A stretch of DNA of 64,000 nucleotides from Robiginitalea aurantiaca (GTDB lineage: Bacteria; Bacteroidota; Bacteroidia; Flavobacteriales; Flavobacteriaceae). Within the stretch, counting starts at the first letter, position 1; the number at the start of each line of letters is the position of its first letter. The stretch covers positions 124,001 through 188,000 of the forward strand of contig NZ_JAUDUY010000001.1 in assembly GCF_030380815.1 (NCBI RefSeq), read 5' to 3'. Position numbers and translations under genes: made by a program. The notes below the pieces were generated by a model that ran no database searches, was not told the DNA's origin, and worked only from the letters and a program-made list of their open reading frames with translations. Of this stretch, positions 9,122-63,776 are shown in pieces.

Positions 9122-10090
9122 TCAATACCCGAGTTTTCCACGAACCCTTTCAAGGACAGAATCAGCTACTTTCTGGGCTTTTTCCGCACCAATAAACAGG
9201 GCTTCATCAATTTCTTCCCGATGTGACATATAATAATGAAAACGTTCCCGGGCTTCTCCAAAATTTTCCAGGAGGCATTCGTAAAGCGCCTGTTTCGCAT
9301 GCCCGTAACCATAGTTTCCACCCGCGTAATTGGAGCGCATTTCTGCTATGGCTTGTTTCCCGGCCAGAATTTGATATAGGGCAAAAACGGTATCGGTATC
9401 CGGATCTTTGGGATCTTCAAGGGGCGTACTGTCTGTTATAATACCCATAATTTGCTTTCTCAGCGCCTTGTCTGACAGAAAAATATCGATGAGGTTCCCC
9501 TTGCTTTTACTCATTTTCTCTCCGTCGGTACCGGGGATATACATGGTTTCATCCTGTACTCTGGCTTCCGGGATCACAAAGGTTTCCCCCATCTGAGCAT
9601 GAAACCTGGAGGCGACATCCCGGGTCATTTCCAGATGTTGCAATTGATCTTTGCCCACCGGAACAAAATCGGCGTCATACAGCAGAATGTCGGCAGCCAT
9701 GAGCATAGGGTAGGTAAAAAGGCCTGCATTGACATCTTCCAGCCTGTCTGCCTTATCCTTAAAGGAATGGGCAAGGGTCAGGCGTTGATACGGAAAGAAA
9801 CAACTTAAATACCATGAGAGCTCGGTCACCTGGGGCACATCGCTTTGGCGATAGAACACCGTTTTATCGGGGTCAAGACCAAACGCAAGCCATGTGGCGG
9901 CTGTAGCATAGGTGTTTTCACTCAGGAGTTTCCCATCTTTGATTTGTGTAAGGGAGTGCATGTCTGCAATAAAGAGGAAGGAGTCATTTTCGGGTTTGGA
10001 CGCCATGTTGATGGCGGGGATGATGGCTCCTAAAATATTTCCCAAATGGGGAGTTCCGGTACTTTGAATCCCAGTTAAAATCCGTGGCAT
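9122..10090 (-). CDS. trpS: Tryptophanyl-tRNA synthetase
   Basis: Charges tRNA-Trp with tryptophan. It is a class I synthetase of 322 residues, the normal bacterial length. The HIGH-like motif is PHLGN (14-18) and the KMSKS loop is EKMSKSKGN (191-199). Other landmarks are MLMAADILLYDADFVPVGKDQ and LAHSFKDKADR. It has its own promoter, which overlaps the divergent promoter of the acyltransferase gene, and a probable terminator. No leader peptide or T-box-like structure is visible in the 74-bp intergenic stretch. Confidence 0.97.
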   Translation of the reverse strand: MPRILTGIQSTGTPHLGNILGAIIPAINMASKPENDSFLFIADMHSLTQIKDGKLLSENTYATAATWLAFGLDPDKTVFYRQSDVPQVTELSWYLSCFFPYQRLTLAHSFKDKADRLEDVNAGLFTYPMLMAADILLYDADFVPVGKDQLQHLEMTRDVASRFHAQMGETFVIPEARVQDETMYIPGTDGEKMSKSKGNLIDIFLSDKALRKQIMGIITDSTPLEDPKDPDTDTVFALYQILAGKQAIAEMRSNYAGGNYGYGHAKQALYECLLENFGEARERFHYYMSHREEIDEALFIGAEKAQKVADSVLERVRGKLGY

Positions 10091-10988: not shown

Positions 10989-12461
10989 TCAGAATCGGAA
11001 ACTAAGACCGCTGTATACACCCACGGAATAGGGTCTGAAACTTCCTTCTGTCTGAGAAAAAGTGTTGAGTTGGTATTTAAACATCGGTAGAAGGTTGAGT
11101 TCCAGTCGCGGATTTAGCCGATAGAATAAACCAAACCCGAGGTTGGTGCTGAAATTCAGCGAATTCATGTTATTGGACTCCCCAACTTCGGTTATAGTCC
11201 CGGAGGACTCGAGGCTAACGGAATTGTCCATCAGAAAAAGCGAACTCATGCCTCCGATCAGATTAAGCCCCCATTTTTTATCGATTAAGGTATACTGCAT
11301 TTCAACGGGAACTTCGAGATATCCGAATTCCTGAACCATCTGCCCTTGTCGGGCCGGGCTGGGTGCCGATATGTCGACAGCTGTCGGCTGCTGGGGCTCC
11401 CGGGCCCCGCCGGCCGTGCTGTGAACCACAAGGCTTTTGGAGTTTTCAGAGTAACTAATACTTCGGATAAGGGAACTCGGACGGGCCGAGGGAGAAGAGG
11501 TAAAACCTACTTCATTGGTGTTGTATCCGTAGTCAACCCTGTGAATTCCCGAACGAATACTAATCTTCGGGGATACTTTATAGGCTACCTGAAGTCCGTA
11601 ACTCATATTTACGGAGCCCGATTTGGAATTGTTCACAAAATTGGGCGATATCGGAGACCCGTTTCCAAATGAATCGAAATAGACGGGGGCAAGGCTGGGC
11701 CCTACCATCCATTTGCCACCTTTATCTGCCTGTTCTGCGACAGCATCCTCATCTTCTATGGCTTCAAAAATGGATTTTTTCCCATCTTCCTTTGATGCCA
11801 GAGCTTCAGCCTCCCTTTCATTCTTTTGGTCTGAATCCAATAAAGGCAAAGCATCATTTTCCGGCAGGGTCCCTTTGCTGTCCAATTCCGGATTCCCGGG
11901 TTTTTTCACAGCAGTTGCCAGATCCGCCTGTCCGTTAAATTGAAGGGAATTCGAGGCTTTTCCCTCCTCCTCACCGGGGGATTTTTGCATTTGGGACTCA
12001 GAGGCGAGCAAAGTCTTGACCTGTGGCGTATTTTCCTTTGTGGAAATCATTTCAGGCCGTGTCGACTTTTTTCCAGGAAGGTTTCCAGGCTTTCCCTCGG
12101 CTTTCCCGGGCTGCACATCTTCGGGATCCTTACCGGCCACTACCTCGGATGGAACCGGGGTAATAGGGGGTGTGTTCAAATCAGGGGTATCCCCTTTTTC
12201 CGGACTTCTGGCATCTTGATTAACCTCAGTACCCGTGACAGCAGGTATCCGGCTTTCGGAATCTTCCCATGGGTTTATTACAAAGAGCATTCCTGCCAGT
12301 ACTGCCGCCGCAGCACCCCAACGCCACCAAAGCGGGATAACCCGAGTGGGTTTTTTCTTGTCCAGGGAAGAGTGGATGCGATTCCAAACCCTGGGATCCG
12401 GGTTTTCCCGGTAATCCTCCAGTTGCTCCTGGAACAGTTTTTCCAATTCTCTATCGTCCAT
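10989..12461 (-). CDS. Anti-sigma-like membrane protein with C-terminal beta-barrel-like domain
   Basis: A 490-residue protein directly downstream of an ECF sigma gene. The N-terminus (DDRELEKLFQEQLEDYREN, then PDPRVWNRIHSSLDKKK) resembles the short cytoplasmic segments of Bacteroidota sigma partners. One transmembrane helix follows (about 44-63, WWRWGAAAAVLAGMLFVINP). A long low-complexity acidic/proline linker (about 65-245) leads to a C-terminal part built of amphipathic strands and ending in SVGVYSGLSFRF, the aromatic end expected of an outer-membrane barrel. A single protein with an inner-membrane helix and a barrel-like end is topologically odd; the linker could span the periplasm. It is probably transcribed with the sigma gene (10-bp gap). 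Confidence 0.75.
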   Translation of the reverse strand: MDDRELEKLFQEQLEDYRENPDPRVWNRIHSSLDKKKPTRVIPLWWRWGAAAAVLAGMLFVINPWEDSESRIPAVTGTEVNQDARSPEKGDTPDLNTPPITPVPSEVVAGKDPEDVQPGKAEGKPGNLPGKKSTRPEMISTKENTPQVKTLLASESQMQKSPGEEEGKASNSLQFNGQADLATAVKKPGNPELDSKGTLPENDALPLLDSDQKNEREAEALASKEDGKKSIFEAIEDEDAVAEQADKGGKWMVGPSLAPVYFDSFGNGSPISPNFVNNSKSGSVNMSYGLQVAYKVSPKISIRSGIHRVDYGYNTNEVGFTSSPSARPSSLIRSISYSENSKSLVVHSTAGGAREPQQPTAVDISAPSPARQGQMVQEFGYLEVPVEMQYTLIDKKWGLNLIGGMSSLFLMDNSVSLESSGTITEVGESNNMNSLNFSTNLGFGLFYRLNPRLELNLLPMFKYQLNTFSQTEGSFRPYSVGVYSGLSFRF

Positions 12462-59329: not shown

Positions 59330-60043
59330 ATGATCTCGAGGATTCCTTTAGGCGATATTCTTTTTTTAGATATAGAAACGGTCCCCCTGGCATCTGATTT
59401 TGGGATGCTTCCCGAAGAGGCTCAGGAACTTTGGGCACTAAAGACGCAATATCAGCGCAAGGAGGAATACACTCCGGAAGCGTTCTATGAAAGGGCAGGT
59501 ATCTGGGCGGAATTCGGAAAAATAGTATGCATCTCTGTAGGCTTCTTTCTGCATACCCAGGACGGGCGAACTTTCAGGGTTCGCAGTTTTACGGGTGAAG
59601 AAAAAACACTGCTCGTGGAGTTCAGTGCATTATTGGAATCTCATTTCGGGGGCAGGCAACATCTTTTGTGTGCGCACAATGGAAAGGAATTTGATTTTCC
59701 GTATTTGGCGCGCCGCATGATCATTCTCGGCATTGAATTGCCTCAGAAGCTGTCTATGTTTGGGAAAAAACCTTGGGAGATCCCGCATCTCGACACCATG
59801 GAATTGTGGCGGTTTGGGGATTTCAAACATTACACCTCCCTGAAATTACTGGCCCATGTATTGGGAGTGCCTTCTCCCAAAGAAGACATCGATGGCAGCA
59901 TGGTCAGAGATGTGTACTATGAAGAGAAGGACCTGGAGCGCATCGTAGAGTATTGCGAAAGGGATGTAGTTACGGTGGCGCAGGTTTTCCTGAGATTGCG
60001 GAATGAGGGGTTGTTGAGGGAAGATCAAATCGTCAATGTTTAG
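59330..60043 (+). CDS. DEDD-type 3'-5' exonuclease (PolB exonuclease-like)
   Basis: A 237-residue predicted 3'-5' exonuclease related to the proofreading domain of DNA polymerase B. Acidic motifs: Exo I LFLDIETVPL (Asp14, Glu16), Exo II CAHNGKEFDFPYLARR (Asp122), and Exo III YCERDVVTVAQ (Asp212). HYTSLKLLAHVLGVPSPKED is the conserved C-terminal part. The gene appears complete. Two detached copies of its C-terminal coding region (residues 160-237, and about 197-237) occur 1.8 and 3.6 kb downstream, diverged by roughly a quarter to a half at the protein level. DNA repair or RNA processing is inferred. Confidence 0.92.
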   Translation: MISRIPLGDILFLDIETVPLASDFGMLPEEAQELWALKTQYQRKEEYTPEAFYERAGIWAEFGKIVCISVGFFLHTQDGRTFRVRSFTGEEKTLLVEFSALLESHFGGRQHLLCAHNGKEFDFPYLARRMIILGIELPQKLSMFGKKPWEIPHLDTMELWRFGDFKHYTSLKLLAHVLGVPSPKEDIDGSMVRDVYYEEKDLERIVEYCERDVVTVAQVFLRLRNEGLLREDQIVNV

Positions 60044-60124
60044 GAATTTTCGTCTTCCCCTTGAGTTATTATTCATGACAGATATGGTTATTAACTACAT
60101 TCAATTATGGAATTCTATTAACCC

Positions 60125-61066
60125 ATGAAAATCGACATTTCTATATCCGATAATGTTAATCGTCAGTTCAAAGACAAGATGGGGGGTCAAGAACTTAAGA
60201 ATGGATTCATAATTGATCCTGATATTGGCACCAATAATGCCAAATGCATTTATATCGAGTTCCCGGGTTGTTTAGAACTGTATCATTTCGGATCAACTCA
60301 ATTTAAAGAGCCTATAGAAATGCACACAACCAATCCGATAGATTCTGACTGGTTGTTGATACATATTAATCTTTCCAAATTTAGCCAGCAAAAAAAAGTT
60401 GGTGATGACACTATATCCTTTCAGCGAAACCTGCCCATCGGTATTTTATTCTGTGGACCAGGCTTAGAAATGAATACGTTAATTCCTCCTGGAATTGAGA
60501 CAGAAGTACTTTCGATCCGATTTAATAAAGAGTTTATAATATCATATTTGGCTGATACAAGGAAATCAATTGATATAAACCGGCATATAGCCTATGAAGA
60601 TATAGATGATGTATTGAGCACAGCACTAGTTCATATTCTGAATACCATGAATAATAAGCTTTCCTGTCATGCCCACCTCCTGAATTTCCTGGATCATTTT
60701 TTCGATAAAATATCTAAGCATCAAAGACCACGTGGCATTGATAAACTTCATCCTGAAGATCTCCAGCGCATTATGGAGGTTTCTTCATTGTTGAGGAATC
60801 CTCTTGACGATAATACTCCCTCTTTGGAAGAATTATCAAAGCAAGCGCATATGGGTATAACCAAGTTTAAGGAATCATTCAAATTGGTCTTTGGACTGGC
60901 TCCTCTGCAATATCGAAAGCGGATTAGAATGGAGTATGCCCGGGAAGAGCTAATGAAAAATAAAAATTCGGTAACTGAATTGAGTTATAAACTTGGTTAT
61001 TCTCATCCTTCAAATTTTACCGCAGCGTTTAAGCGGTTTTTTGGGAGGCTGCCTTCTTCTTTTTGA
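60125..61066 (+). CDS. AraC-family regulator in AT-rich accessory segment
   Basis: A 313-residue regulator with an N-terminal sensor part (GCLELYHFGSTQFKEPIEMH, then PIGILFCGPGLEMNTLIPPG) and a C-terminal double HTH: SLEELSKQAHMGITKFKESF and NSVTELSYKLGYSHPSNFTA, then AFKRFFGRLPSSF. Base composition is clearly different from the core: for example 20 of 60 bases G or C at 60541-60600 against 31 of 60 at 58141-58200. This suggests recent acquisition. It is the first gene after the intact exonuclease; the likely target is the adjacent SnoaL-like gene, by position only. Confidence 0.88.
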   Translation: MKIDISISDNVNRQFKDKMGGQELKNGFIIDPDIGTNNAKCIYIEFPGCLELYHFGSTQFKEPIEMHTTNPIDSDWLLIHINLSKFSQQKKVGDDTISFQRNLPIGILFCGPGLEMNTLIPPGIETEVLSIRFNKEFIISYLADTRKSIDINRHIAYEDIDDVLSTALVHILNTMNNKLSCHAHLLNFLDHFFDKISKHQRPRGIDKLHPEDLQRIMEVSSLLRNPLDDNTPSLEELSKQAHMGITKFKESFKLVFGLAPLQYRKRIRMEYAREELMKNKNSVTELSYKLGYSHPSNFTAAFKRFFGRLPSSF

Positions 61067-61080
61067 AATCCGGCTTTTTG

Positions 61081-61095
61081 CACTGGGAATTCGAC
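61081..61095 (+). repeat. Direct near-repeat, left copy
   Basis: CACTGGGAATTCGAC, 14 of 15 identical to CACTGGAAATTCGAC at 61850-61864. It starts 14 bp after the AraC stop. In the matching frame it reads HWEFD, like HWKFD at the head of the second exonuclease fragment. With its partner it bounds the SnoaL-like gene. Confidence 0.45.
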
Positions 61096-61159
61096 TTTTT
61101 TCATTAGCCAGATAACCTTTACCTGAGGCATCTTTGGGTTAATTTAAAATTCAAAGATC

Positions 61160-61735
61160 ATGTATAAAAAAGTCTTCATCCTTTTTTCTTGTCTATCTAT
61201 TAATGCCGTAGCAATTAGTCAGGATCCGCTGGCCGGGCAAACTGAGATCAACAAAGAAATTGCCGGGAATTTTTACAAGGACCTTTGGTTCAGCAATAAT
61301 ACCGATAAGTACATTAAATATGTCGCTGACACTTACACAGTTCACGATATAGGGGACCGAAAGGGTGTCACAGAGCCCGCTGTCGAACAAAAGAATATCG
61401 CCGATTTTTTCTGGGCCAATGGGGATCTTAAACCCAAGTTTGACTTTCAAATCGCAGAGGGAGATTTAGTGGCTACCCGCTGGATTGCCAGTTATGAACC
61501 CAAAACCCTCACAGGAAAAATATTTATCGGGTCAAAACCTATCCCGATCATCAATGTCCTGCGGTTTGAGAACGGCAAAATCGTGGAATTTTGGAACCAC
61601 AGGCATGACATTGATACAAATCAAACCATGAAGTATGTTTTAAAAGGCCTGTTGATAGGTTTGTTGATTGCTCTAGTGCCCTCAATTTATGCCTTCAGAT
61701 TAAGAAGAAAATTTAGAAAAATGATGCAACAATAG
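61160..61735 (+). CDS. Exported SnoaL-like/ester-cyclase-fold protein with C-terminal membrane helix
   Basis: A 191-residue protein: signal peptide (MYKKVFILFSCLSINAVAIS), a SnoaL/NTF2-like domain with the family pattern FYKDLWFSNNTDKYIKYVAD, then FWANGDLKPKFDFQIAEGDL, VATRWIASY and NVLRFENGKIVEFWNHRHD, and a C-terminal helix (YVLKGLLIGLLIALVPSIYA) followed by basic RRKFRKMMQQ. The anchor with a positive inside tail suggests the domain faces the periplasm. Polyketide-type chemistry cannot be assumed. It follows the AraC gene by 93 bp and lies between the two direct near-repeats. Confidence 0.85.
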   Translation: MYKKVFILFSCLSINAVAISQDPLAGQTEINKEIAGNFYKDLWFSNNTDKYIKYVADTYTVHDIGDRKGVTEPAVEQKNIADFFWANGDLKPKFDFQIAEGDLVATRWIASYEPKTLTGKIFIGSKPIPIINVLRFENGKIVEFWNHRHDIDTNQTMKYVLKGLLIGLLIALVPSIYAFRLRRKFRKMMQQ

Positions 61736-61849
61736 GAAACACAGAAATGTAACTATGCCAATAGTGTTTTAGGTGCAAACCTGAGCCGATAGATGCAAAC
61801 ATACCTCCACAAATAAATCTGTCGATTGTTTATATTTTAGAAATTATAC

Positions 61850-61864
61850 CACTGGAAATTCGAC
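61850..61864 (+). repeat. Direct near-repeat, right copy, at the fragment boundary
   Basis: CACTGGAAATTCGAC, 14 of 15 identical to the element at 61081-61095. Its TGG is the first codon of the second exonuclease fragment, so the repeat and the breakpoint coincide. Confidence 0.45.
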
Positions 61865-62089
61865 GATTTTAAGCACTACACCTCGCTAAAACTCATGGCT
61901 TACGTGCTGGGAATACCCTCCCCAAAAGAAGATATTGACGGGAGCATGGTAAGAGATGTTTACTATGAAGAGAAGAACCTGGAACGCATCGTCCATTACT
62001 GCGAAAGGGATGTGGTCACCGTGGCCCAGATCATTTTAAGGCTGCGAAATGAGCCATTATTGACTGAAGACCAAATCATTCATGTTTAG
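61853..62089 (+). pseudogene. Detached C-terminal fragment of the 3'-5' exonuclease (copy 2)
   Basis: Encodes WKFDDFKHYTSLKLMAYVLG through to DQIIHV and the stop: 78 codons colinear without gaps with residues 160-237 of the intact gene, including the Exo III YCERDVVTVAQ. It has no start or N-terminal domain, so it cannot make an active enzyme; an internal ATG at 61895 is fortuitous. DNA differs from the intact gene at many third positions, so it is not a fresh duplication. Sequence before codon 160 and after the stop is unrelated to the intact gene's flanks. Confidence 0.85.
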
Positions 62090-62094
62090 AGGCT

Positions 62095-62223
62095 TTAAGC
62101 CAGCCGGTGCTGCCCATCGTCCACCCTGTAGAGAGTAAAGGGAATACAGTGTAACACTTCATACAACTCCTTGTCTTTTATCATAGGCAGGGCATGAATA
62201 TCCAATACCCGTTTCAACCCTCC
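62095..62223 (-). pseudogene. Possible tail of a lost gene, minus strand
   Basis: A 42-codon open stretch ending in TAA with protein-like composition: LKRVLDIHALPMIKDKELYE, then VLHCIPFTLYRVDDGQHRLA. No start codon with a plausible ribosome site; upstream in frame there is a stop. It converges on exonuclease fragment 2 with 5 bp between the two stops. It may be the C-terminus of a gene that once flanked that exonuclease copy. Protein family not recognised. Confidence 0.35.
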
Positions 62224-62289
62224 TCAATCGTTATATCGTCAGCATTAGAACTAAAGGACTCTATAAACCTTAAATGAGAAACCTTTTAG

Positions 62290-62439
62290 CTTAAGCTTTG
62301 TTTGTTTTGGGATAGCCTTGCCGATAGGTTTCTTGTGAATGAAAATAAGATCGAAGCCATAAGAATATGTCAAGCCATTTTTAAATTAGATTGTTATCAC
62401 GCCAATGTCAAACAAATGCTGGATAAAATAAAAATATAA
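62290..62439 (+). pseudogene. C-terminal TPR remnant
   Basis: An open frame of 49 codons after a stop: LADRFLVNENKIEAIRICQA, then IFKLDCYHANVKQMLDKIKI and TAA. The pattern matches the last TPR of Bacteroidota hydrolases and TPR proteins (WDSLAD, KIEAIRICQAIFKLD, NVKQMLDKIK). No N-terminal part is left. It ends 4 bp before the S41 peptidase ATG, suggesting these two were once neighbours in a donor genome. Decayed or truncated gene. Confidence 0.55.
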
Positions 62440-62443
62440 GATT

Positions 62444-63544
62444 ATGAGTGCCAATTACACTAAGATTAAACTACTCCTTGTAGTTTTCATTTTTGCAGCA
62501 GTTAATGCCTGTAAGGACAAATCTCCCGAAAAACCACTTAAGCCACTAAACGCAGACTTAATAGAAGTAGCAGATAGTATTTCTGTATTAATGAACACTT
62601 TTCATTATAACCCCAAAGAGTTAACCACAGATAAATACCTGCAATTAGAAAAAGAGGTGAAAAACCTTGCAGAAACTGCTCAAACTAAAGAAGAGTTTAT
62701 TAGGGAGTATAATTTGTTATGGCAAAATGGTCCTTTCTCGCATGTGCGTCTGGATAACATGAAACAGCCAGCTCAGGAAATAGCAAAATTCATTGATACC
62801 CTGAGAGTGGGCGATCAAAGCGTGTCGTTGGAATGGATGGAGAATACGGCCATTTTGACGGTAAATACGATGATGGGTGTGGATACGAAAGAAAGGGTGG
62901 AAGACGCCTATAAAGAGATTGACAAGAGGGACATTGAATATCTCATTGTAGACCTGAGAAATAACGATGGGGGAACTTTTGCCGGGATCCCACTTATAGC
63001 CCATCTGATCTCGGATCCACTGGAAATAGGCGTATTTGTTTCACAGAAATGGTGGAACAGTAACTCAAACCCTCCAATTAAGGAGAATACCCTGGGCCTC
63101 ACACCATGGCAGGGATGGTCGATTCAAACTTTCTGGAATGACGCACAAGAGAATCCGCTTACCCGGCTCCAAATCCAGCCGATGGCTCCACGTTTCGATG
63201 GGCAGGTGTATGTTTTGATCAGTGATAACGCCTTTAGTGCGGCCGAGTTAACATCCGATGGCTTGGCCAATATAGAGAATGTATCGCTTATAGGAGAAAC
63301 CACTGGCGGGGAAGTACTTTCCCAAAAGATGTATGATCTGCCAATGGATATGCAACTATCAATTCCTATTGCCGATTACTATTCTTTTCGAATAGGCAGA
63401 ATCGAAGGCCAGGGAGTGAGTCCCGATATAGAAATAGATCCTCGGGTGGCAAAGGATCTCGCGATATCTTTAACAAACGGAGTGAATCTGGAAGATGCCG
63501 TAACAAAAGCTAAAGACGATCTAAAAAATATGTCAAAAAATTAA
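62444..63544 (+). CDS. S41-family serine peptidase, lipoprotein
   Basis: A 366-residue predicted lipoprotein (LLVVFIFAAVNAC, Cys23) of the S41 (C-terminal processing/tricorn-core) peptidase family. Catalytic-region motifs: YLIVDLRNNDGGTFAGIPLI, VYVLISDNAFSAAELTSDGL with the nucleophile Ser265, and LIGETTGGEVLSQK. The lysine or glutamate partner is not certain. No PDZ domain is visible; the N-terminal helical part (about 35-110) is typical of the short Bacteroidota type. It lies between exonuclease fragments 2 and 3, downstream of a TPR remnant. Confidence 0.9.
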   Translation: MSANYTKIKLLLVVFIFAAVNACKDKSPEKPLKPLNADLIEVADSISVLMNTFHYNPKELTTDKYLQLEKEVKNLAETAQTKEEFIREYNLLWQNGPFSHVRLDNMKQPAQEIAKFIDTLRVGDQSVSLEWMENTAILTVNTMMGVDTKERVEDAYKEIDKRDIEYLIVDLRNNDGGTFAGIPLIAHLISDPLEIGVFVSQKWWNSNSNPPIKENTLGLTPWQGWSIQTFWNDAQENPLTRLQIQPMAPRFDGQVYVLISDNAFSAAELTSDGLANIENVSLIGETTGGEVLSQKMYDLPMDMQLSIPIADYYSFRIGRIEGQGVSPDIEIDPRVAKDLAISLTNGVNLEDAVTKAKDDLKNMSKN

Positions 63545-63651
63545 GTTTTTAAGCGAGTAAAACATAATTAGGTTTAGGACAGCTACATTCTTGTTATCTA
63601 CCCTGACAAGGCAATCTTATTCAGATAGAATTTGCCGCCCTGCAATTTGTT

Positions 63652-63776
63652 TATGAAAAAAAGGCCTGGATCGCATTATTCAATACTGCGAACAGGATGT
63701 GATTACCGTGGCCCAGATCATTTTAAGGCTGCGGAATGAGGAATTGTGGACGGAAGCCGAAATAGTCTATATTTAG
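63652..63776 (+). pseudogene. Detached C-terminal fragment of the 3'-5' exonuclease (copy 3)
   Basis: GLDRIIQYCEQDVITVAQII, then LRLRNEELWTEAEIVYI and TAG: 37 codons colinear with residues 201-237 of the intact gene. Upstream, TATGAAAAA fits YEEK if one base is missing from the A run (63656-63662), a frameshift. It shares CCGTGGCCCAGATCATTTTA with copy 2, so copies 2 and 3 are closer to each other than to copy 1 in that stretch. Non-functional alone. Confidence 0.8.

Follow-up and report, generated by a model that had tools for sequence, protein, structure and literature searches.

A probable site of serial cassette insertion in an exonuclease gene of Robiginitalea aurantiaca and other Flavobacteriaceae

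Introduction

Why should the end of one chromosomal gene recur several times in a row, with different genes between the copies? The question is raised by a 64,000-nucleotide stretch (hereafter the window) of the Robiginitalea aurantiaca genome, where an intact gene for a 3'-5' exonuclease, here called exoN, is followed by detached copies of its own 3' end. An original prediction, made from the letters alone, had described three copies of that end, two of them detached, separated by accessory DNA, the first insert being AT-rich, with no integrase in sight. It proposed serial insertion or recombination at this gene, a 3' end of the intact copy that possibly came from the last insert, and either a new mechanism or a decayed element. 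Here we follow the locus beyond the window and through related genomes. The window's genome is referred to as G000, other G numbers denote compared genomes, and L031 is the locus that continues the same contig beyond the window. Our analysis makes it likely that cassettes were inserted one after another, site-specifically, at exoN codon 160 by a serine recombinase supplied from outside the cassettes.

Results and Discussion

An array of detached exoN ends

The three copies in the window were confirmed; they align without gaps and share one stop position, the third spanning codons 199-237. Their alignments stay in register (225 bp at 76%; 132 bp at 70% and 77%), which excludes chance likeness. 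Four further detached ends lie beyond the window on the same contig, at L031 6745-6990, 8226-8306 (truncated), 9370-9612 and 11772-11975 (with stops). In total G000 carries seven exoN 3' ends, which share one orientation and line up along about 11 kb; the six detached ones extend over 10.4 kb behind exoN, with cargos of one to two genes between them. The array is followed by a conserved flank of endonuclease, HflX, porin and SUF genes.

An old tandem duplication of the exoN 3' end, with later insertion or decay between the copies, would also leave ends in direct orientation. It would fit the stop position that both window copies share with exoN, and the 91% likeness of the G000 copies f2 and f6. 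As shown below, this account runs into difficulty as soon as other genomes are considered.

Junctions share a fixed boundary and a foreign half-site

Detached ends that have kept their left edge start at codon 160, with TGG in 23 of the 25 tabulated cases; ends truncated at the left edge inside codons 160-237 were excluded from every junction count. Just upstream of them stands a short AT-rich motif foreign to exoN. The heptamer TTAAAAA stands at -16 to -10, with at most one mismatch, in 21 of the 25 tabulated junctions (half-site TTAAAAA-N9). In the 21 junctions that were scored, a set omitting four degenerate ones (G0_f7, G421_f1, G421_f3 and G5_f, of which only G421_f1 passes), it is found at 20, as against 1.9% per position in the 200 bp upstream. 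G419-G422 were detected by a pattern scan that needs the half-site and thus have at least one motif-bearing junction each by construction; before that scan, protein search alone had yielded 10 junctions, 8 of which carry the motif with at most one mismatch. The junction of G432 passes the rule with one mismatch and that of G435 fails with two.

The final 24 bases before the TG are alike across 23 aligned junctions, and farther upstream the junctions fall into several unrelated sequence groups. Eleven pairs with a common right end are 86% identical over the 60 bp before the TG (background 42%, 133 pairs) and 76% over positions +3 to +62 after it, compared with a background of 77%. Cassettes with a common right end, in other words, lose similarity exactly at the TG. 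The clearest case is the cassette with a 357-aa protein in G000 and Eudoraea adriatica, with 98% over the 60 bp before the TG and 72% over the 60 bp after it. Measured from TG to TG, the cassettes are 0.6-5.8 kb long.

This boundary bears on a second alternative, homologous recombination alone, by which transformed array fragments would spread via the repeated 3' ends once a first unit of exoN end, cargo and exoN end existed. Homologous flanks are indeed present in every array, and leader and 3' end look reassorted. However, the pairs that share a right end break at the TG without spilling into the 3' end, and the exoN ends of unrelated junctions average 77% over their first 60 bp and 67% over the next 138 bp, which is poor for RecA. 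A fixed half-site by the TG in otherwise unrelated right ends is also left unexplained. We regard this alternative as quite improbable.

Empty sites, a single insert and the leader

In G434 and G436 (genus of E. adriatica) and in G006 (the window's genus), exoN stands directly beside the endonuclease gene, followed by HflX; these are empty sites. G432 has one insert of 2,160 bp, in which an exoN 3' end and a leader are followed by the gene for one TPR-like/S41 protein and by the half-site. Its displaced end continues into the native flank of the empty sites, and other sequence follows the intact gene. Comparison of G432 with G434 and G436 thus finds the gene end restored by the cassette and the displaced end at the far boundary. 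As in genomic islands of the ssrA and SCC (staphylococcal cassette chromosome) type, there is a fixed single site in the 3' part of a conserved gene, and a conserved element-end motif beside the displaced gene ends. The G000 series of fragments and cargo recurs in none of the sister genomes, and some cargo is shared without detached ends. Together with the TG-exact boundaries, the empty sites and the single-insert stage favour the serial insertion that the original prediction had put forward. The same two stages contradict an old tandem duplication. Three cargos, moreover, are 81-89% alike in other genera where exoN itself is 67-68% alike, and a single clade of the G000 copies is rejected (see below), an argument that is weak alone. 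We give a tandem duplication only a very slight chance.

Between exoN end and cargo lies the leader, about 175-190 bp long with a palindrome in E. adriatica. There (L119, L120, L121) the palindrome TATAGTTATTAACTATATCC and then ATTGTTGGCAACAAT-like sequence end the leader right before the cargo start codons, and four exoN copies end at one position ahead of different cargos. A leader profile matches behind exoN copies in several genomes and has no match in the Eudoraea-genus empty sites G434 and G436; the leader therefore probably belongs to the cassettes. The palindrome has six matches, in 2 of 16 genomes and every one at exoN arrays, so that a genome-wide repeat was rejected; its folding is unexceptional (z -1.74). 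It might act as a promoter, an operator or a second recombination site.

Chimeric exoN genes

In the tree of the exoN 5' part the window's genus forms one clade (100/100), with G000 and G001 as sisters (100/99). The 3' part does not follow this genus tree. Approximately unbiased (AU) tests, which rest on 234 bp and on a 3' tree with two long branches meeting and uneven base make-up, reject the genus clade (p 0.004), the grouping of G000 with G001 (p 0.008) and the union in one clade of the intact gene, f2, f4 and f6, the four G000 copies that could be scored (p 0.037). The active end of G001 instead groups with the detached G000 copies f2 and f6 (100/99), and the outermost G001 copy clusters with native-type ends from G003, G006 and G007 (97/96).

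Pairwise comparison points in the same direction. Between six own-genus and six Eudoraea-group exoN genes the 5' part is 64.0% and the 3' part 79.2% alike, a difference of +15.2, the six own-genus genes having been grouped after their 3' type was seen; 43 loci were given to this comparison and 11 yielded no gene by the motif rule. The difference is +0.5 (s.d. 6.1) in 465 control pairs of other genes, +4.3 for the six own-genus genes against other genera and +4.5 for three native-type genes against the Eudoraea group. An unconstrained change point falls on codon 162, with 2 of 1000 permutations as strong. The exoN gene of G000 is thus probably a chimera of a native 5' part and a cassette-borne 3' part, and the discordant trees of the two parts favour the earlier suggestion that the 3' end of the intact copy came from a later insert.

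A split exoN gene and candidate recombinases

One genome shows what may act at this site. In D16 (G150), exoN is split between codons 159 and 160, at the TG, by a 5,873-bp element coding for a Resolvase+Recombinase+Zn-ribbon protein of 508 aa, a serine recombinase of 224 aa and a SinI-type restriction-modification pair. The right end of the element reads TTAAAAA-N9-TG and the left end is its mirror image, TG-N9-TTTTTAA. Such a palindromic layout, with TG as the shared dinucleotide, is what the attP of a serine integrase should look like. The element leaves exoN split, its gene end unrestored. It encodes a large serine recombinase, which the cassettes do not. The 508-aa protein is not a Ccr proper, scoring 51.8 and 49.5 bits against the NCBIfam CcrB and CcrC equivalogs at a cut-off of 900. 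Recombinases of the D16 type are rare: out of 397 genomes of the family, only D16 and one other gave a match at 1e-30.

CSMAG_121 (G422) is a possible second case of a split exoN, judged from sequence similarity. Its exoN ends at the same TG; the left contig stops in an open reading frame (ORF) with weak similarity to the C-terminal end of the recombinase of D16, and a second contig holds the right end together with a half-site. As the assembly has no recombinase domain elsewhere (no PF00239 or PF07508 match), the case is no more than possible.

Other candidates were rejected. In G000, hits to PF07508 and PF00239 fall on C44 and C49, two contigs away from the array. On C49 (L126, 619-2382, minus strand) a 587-aa large serine recombinase adjoins an apparently cut-short ATPase gene, which we take to be comM/YifB-like. 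An integron or tyrosine recombinase was rejected for G000, the only genome searched: PF00589 has no match at the locus, the nearest being about 100 kb off on the contig. As carriers of the exoN 3' end, plasmids gave no match; among phages 15 records were hit, with identities of up to 44.7%, the annotated ones being exonucleases of their own. The half-site pattern was not found in viral contigs, nor were relatives of the D16 recombinase, by a search that detects close relatives only.

Proposed mechanism

The boundary, the half-site, the empty and single-insert stages, the chimeric genes and the cross-genus sharing of cargo described below are all shown by the sequences. They would fit together as follows. 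exoN would be the attachment site of a serine recombinase, with the TG of codon 160 as crossover dinucleotide, and short cassettes would integrate there in succession. From the left, a cassette would start with the TG and its own exoN codons 160-237 with their stop codon, go on with a leader and a single cargo gene or a few, and close with a right-end half-site (consensus TTAgataTTAAAAAttanAnnTc). In the circular cassette this half-site would abut the exoN 3' end across the TG. Crossover at the resident TG would join the exoN 5' part to the 3' end of the cassette, so that the gene stays intact but becomes chimeric, and the resident's own 3' end would be left stranded behind the cassette. Repeats of this step would build the array and older ends would decay. 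We infer the circular intermediate, and likewise catalysis in trans by a large serine recombinase of the D16 kind, which would come from outside the cassettes, perhaps with a visiting element.

Several observations weigh against this mechanism. Among 199 genomes of the family, sampled for the most part at one per genus, only two had more than one exoN 3' end, and one of these two is the window's own. Copies 3 and 7 of G000 and copy 3 of G421 have no half-site. A change point at codon 185 fits nearly as well as codon 162 (residual 5.318 vs 5.315), and gene by gene the change point falls on codons 185-187 in two of the six genes and on 160-166 in the other four; both points speak for homologous recombination. 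There is no exoN 3' end inside the D16 element, which is hence not an autonomous version of the cassettes. A PF00239 search of 14 genomes found no match in any array but in the element of D16, and 9 of the 14 have no PF00239 gene at all, among them G001, G127, G420 and G432; the enzyme is thus not resident in most carriers. The evidence from CSMAG_121 is a match of 24% to the C-terminus, with a pairwise E of 2e-5, where a contig ends, and the large serine recombinase of G000 perhaps marks another insertion, at another, comM-like gene. According to PMC3783163, serine integrases recombine attP only with attB, so an attR-like cassette circle would not be the normal substrate of the well-studied enzymes; the ssrA islands, in which a motif stands beside a gene-end repeat, nevertheless appear to share this design.

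Finally, in three cross-genus cargo pairs the exoN 3' end before the cargo is no more alike than background, which means that end and cargo do not stay together. The linkage that the simplest cassette model predicts was not found in any of the three pairs tested. Its lack may result from later recombination of the active gene end.

A combination of insertion and healing, the main rival to serial cassette insertion, explains this lack better. A D16-like element would split exoN and transformation with related DNA would restore the gene; the left side and the recombinase would be replaced, the cargo, right half-site and old 3' end would stay, and repetition would give an array. D16 shows the split stage and CSMAG_121 possibly another, no cassette keeps a serine recombinase and most of the searched genomes have none, and in the 357-aa cassette cargo and right half-site are alike in two genera where the 3' end ahead of them is not. 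On the other hand, the leader looks cassette-specific, with profile matches behind the exoN copies of several genomes and none at G434 and G436, which are empty sites. The four E. adriatica copies that end at one place before different cargos are unlike random healing joints, and queries with both D16 recombinases gave no convincing remnant in the arrays. Healing is in our judgement unlikely, although less so than homologous recombination alone. Serial cassette insertion remains the reading we prefer.

Spread and sharing of cargo

The relatives that carry such arrays are Flavobacteriaceae classified under Eudoraea and Robiginitalea. Multiple exoN 3' ends were seen in 2 of 10 own-genus genomes (plus a remnant in G005), 6 of 10 in the genus of E. 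adriatica, 1 of 2 in that of G127 and 1 of 9 of another genus (assembly Ww469). The metagenome-assembled genome Ww469 (G420/G427; L122, L123) has two different intact exoN genes on separate contigs and may therefore mix two strains. In G126 (L083, 7260-7622 of the reverse complement) the exoN match begins at residue 113, and the gene may be broken or frameshifted.

Cargo proteins common to different genera are 78-90% identical, with full-length exoN at no more than 74% in the same comparison table. Behind exoN ends in three genomes, each of a different genus, a set recurs that consists of a flavin amine-oxidoreductase-family protein and an FMN-reductase-like one (78-90%; L082, L081, L125), joined in two of the three by what is presumably a flavodoxin-like protein; the FMN-reductase-like name is likewise our assumption. 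Among sister genomes, the AraC and SnoaL cargo also occurs in G007 (77-80%) and the DUF4386 cargo in G002, G004 and G009 (67-77%; with DUF6326 in two), in each case without detached ends. Beside exoN in G009 (L035 1638-2107), an MGMT gene matches in two overlapping pieces, which suggests a frameshift.

Cargo of the G000 array

The features of the window are listed in Table 1. Outside G000, copy 2 is closest to the present 3' end of sister G001 (87%). A 45-aa ORF precedes the S41 peptidase gene in cargo 2. In order, the G000 cargos are AraC and SnoaL; the S41 peptidase; DUF6326 and DUF4386; the 357-aa protein, for which no Pfam family matched; DUF805; and an alkyl-sulfatase-type metallo-beta-lactamase-fold protein. 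Their GC content is 33-42%, compared with 47-48% in exoN and the endonuclease-HflX flank; at 37.6%, cargo 1 is AT-rich as the original prediction had stated, and its remark that no integrase is visible also holds for the array. A PADLOC defence search matched none of the eight G000 cargo proteins; it did match the methylase and restriction enzyme of D16.

Table 1. Features at the exoN locus, in window positions.
Feature	Position	Strand	Basis
exoN, intact DEDD/PolB-type 3'-5' exonuclease gene, 237 codons; target gene	59330..60043	+	Pfam DNA_pol_B_exo2, 2e-17
TG core, codon 160; putative insertion site (attB centre)	59807..59808	+	detached ends start there; D16 element splits exoN there
Cassette 1, 2,046 bp: exoN 3' end, short leader, AraC, SnoaL, right-end half-site; most recent by position	59807..61852	+	
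Leader palindrome-like motif TATGGTTATTAACTACATTC	60083..60102	+	22 bp ahead of AraC start codon; resembles E. adriatica cassette leader, 3 mismatches
Cargo 1a, AraC-type regulator (HTH_18)	60125..61066	+	Pfam; 80% identical protein behind exoN in sister G007
Cargo 1b, SnoaL-like protein	61160..61735	+	Pfam; 77% identical in G007
Half-site closing cassette 1 on the right, TTTATATTTTAGAAATTATACCAC; reads TTAGAAA-N9-TG and differs from the consensus at one position	61829..61852	+	
Copy 2 of the exoN 3' end, displaced; gapless over codons 160-237 plus stop codon	61853..62089	+	76% DNA identity to exoN
Cargo 2, S41 family peptidase	62444..63544	+	Pfam; 57-59% identical S41 protein in Eudoraea G421 exoN array
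Copy 3 of the exoN 3' end, displaced and truncated to codons 199-237 plus stop codon; half-site lost	63657..63776	+	59% protein identity, stop position as in exoN

Comparison with known systems

The closest precedent is offered by the ssrA islands of Dehalococcoides (DsiB/DsiA), described in the part of PMC3146451 available to us as tandem, with gene-end repeats and a motif upstream of each repeat, and as using a CcrB-like large and a small serine recombinase, 15 of 31 islands being without an integration module. Like these, the exoN arrays lie in tandem behind one gene, are bounded by copies of its 3' end, have an upstream motif that cannot be aligned to the gene, and carry variable cargo; a large and a small serine recombinase also occur together, here in the D16 element. 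In contrast, the ssrA islands target tmRNA with a 20-bp repeat, as far as described there, whereas exoN is a protein gene with 78 codons exchanged. Sixteen of the ssrA islands keep the recombinase module and no exoN cassette that was read does.

The SCC and Enterococcus cassette chromosome (ECC) elements at rlmH, in the portion of PMC6222049 consulted, likewise combine large serine recombinases, an attB in the 3' region of a conserved gene and variable content. Unlike the exoN cassettes, however, ECC elements have direct repeats of about 50 bp and carry ccrAB, and the CcrB/CcrC scores of D16 are far below the cut-off. The exoN cassettes may resemble cis-mobilizable elements (CIMEs), which are without integration genes, keep att sites and accumulate in tandem (PMC5704250, in part). 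By a serine-recombinase search, and with part of the cargo ORFs run against Pfam, the cassettes have no serine recombinase; they keep their ends and stand in tandem. CIMEs are presented there as decayed elements with attL and attR, whereas exoN cassette ends recur across genera with different cargo, which suggests units that are still moved by an outside enzyme.

Integrons hold arrays of one- or two-gene cassettes behind one insertion point, with the recombinase outside the cassettes. Small cassettes, one insertion point and a recombinase not in the cassettes are found at exoN as well; the serine-type TG core inside a host gene, and the third of exoN that each cassette carries, set the arrays apart, and in G000 no tyrosine integrase stands beside the array. 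It is tempting, although doubtful, to see here a system of gene capture that relies on a serine-recombinase site and not on an integron. Minimal cassettes without a recombinase, drawn from a common pool and each with the C-terminal third of a host nuclease as landing end, might then be moved in trans between Flavobacteriaceae genera by a visiting enzyme, cargo uptake and nuclease remodelling being one event.

Targeted literature searches, as far as the sources found extend, returned no published account of the exoN locus or of such arrays in the host group. With ssrA islands, SCC/ECC and CIME accretion as precedents and nothing printed on exoN, we see a known kind of system in a new variation. 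The suggestion that the mechanism may be new holds only in part: D16 has an element with a large serine recombinase at this very site, and tandem islands of this kind are known at other genes. New are the host group, the target gene, the exchanged 78-codon end that makes chimeric enzymes, and the recombinase-free cassettes.

Conclusion

Our analysis extends tandem islands of the serine-recombinase type to marine Flavobacteriaceae and offers an exact attachment site, TTAAAAA-N9-TG-N9-TTTTTAA against exoN codon 160. It also shows that different genera have repeatedly swapped the C-terminal third of a chromosomal enzyme. The cassettes have conserved ends and no recombinase, and the genomes that carry them often have no serine recombinase either, which raises the question of who moves the cassettes. 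Our results also imply that trees of such target genes mislead unless both parts are treated apart.

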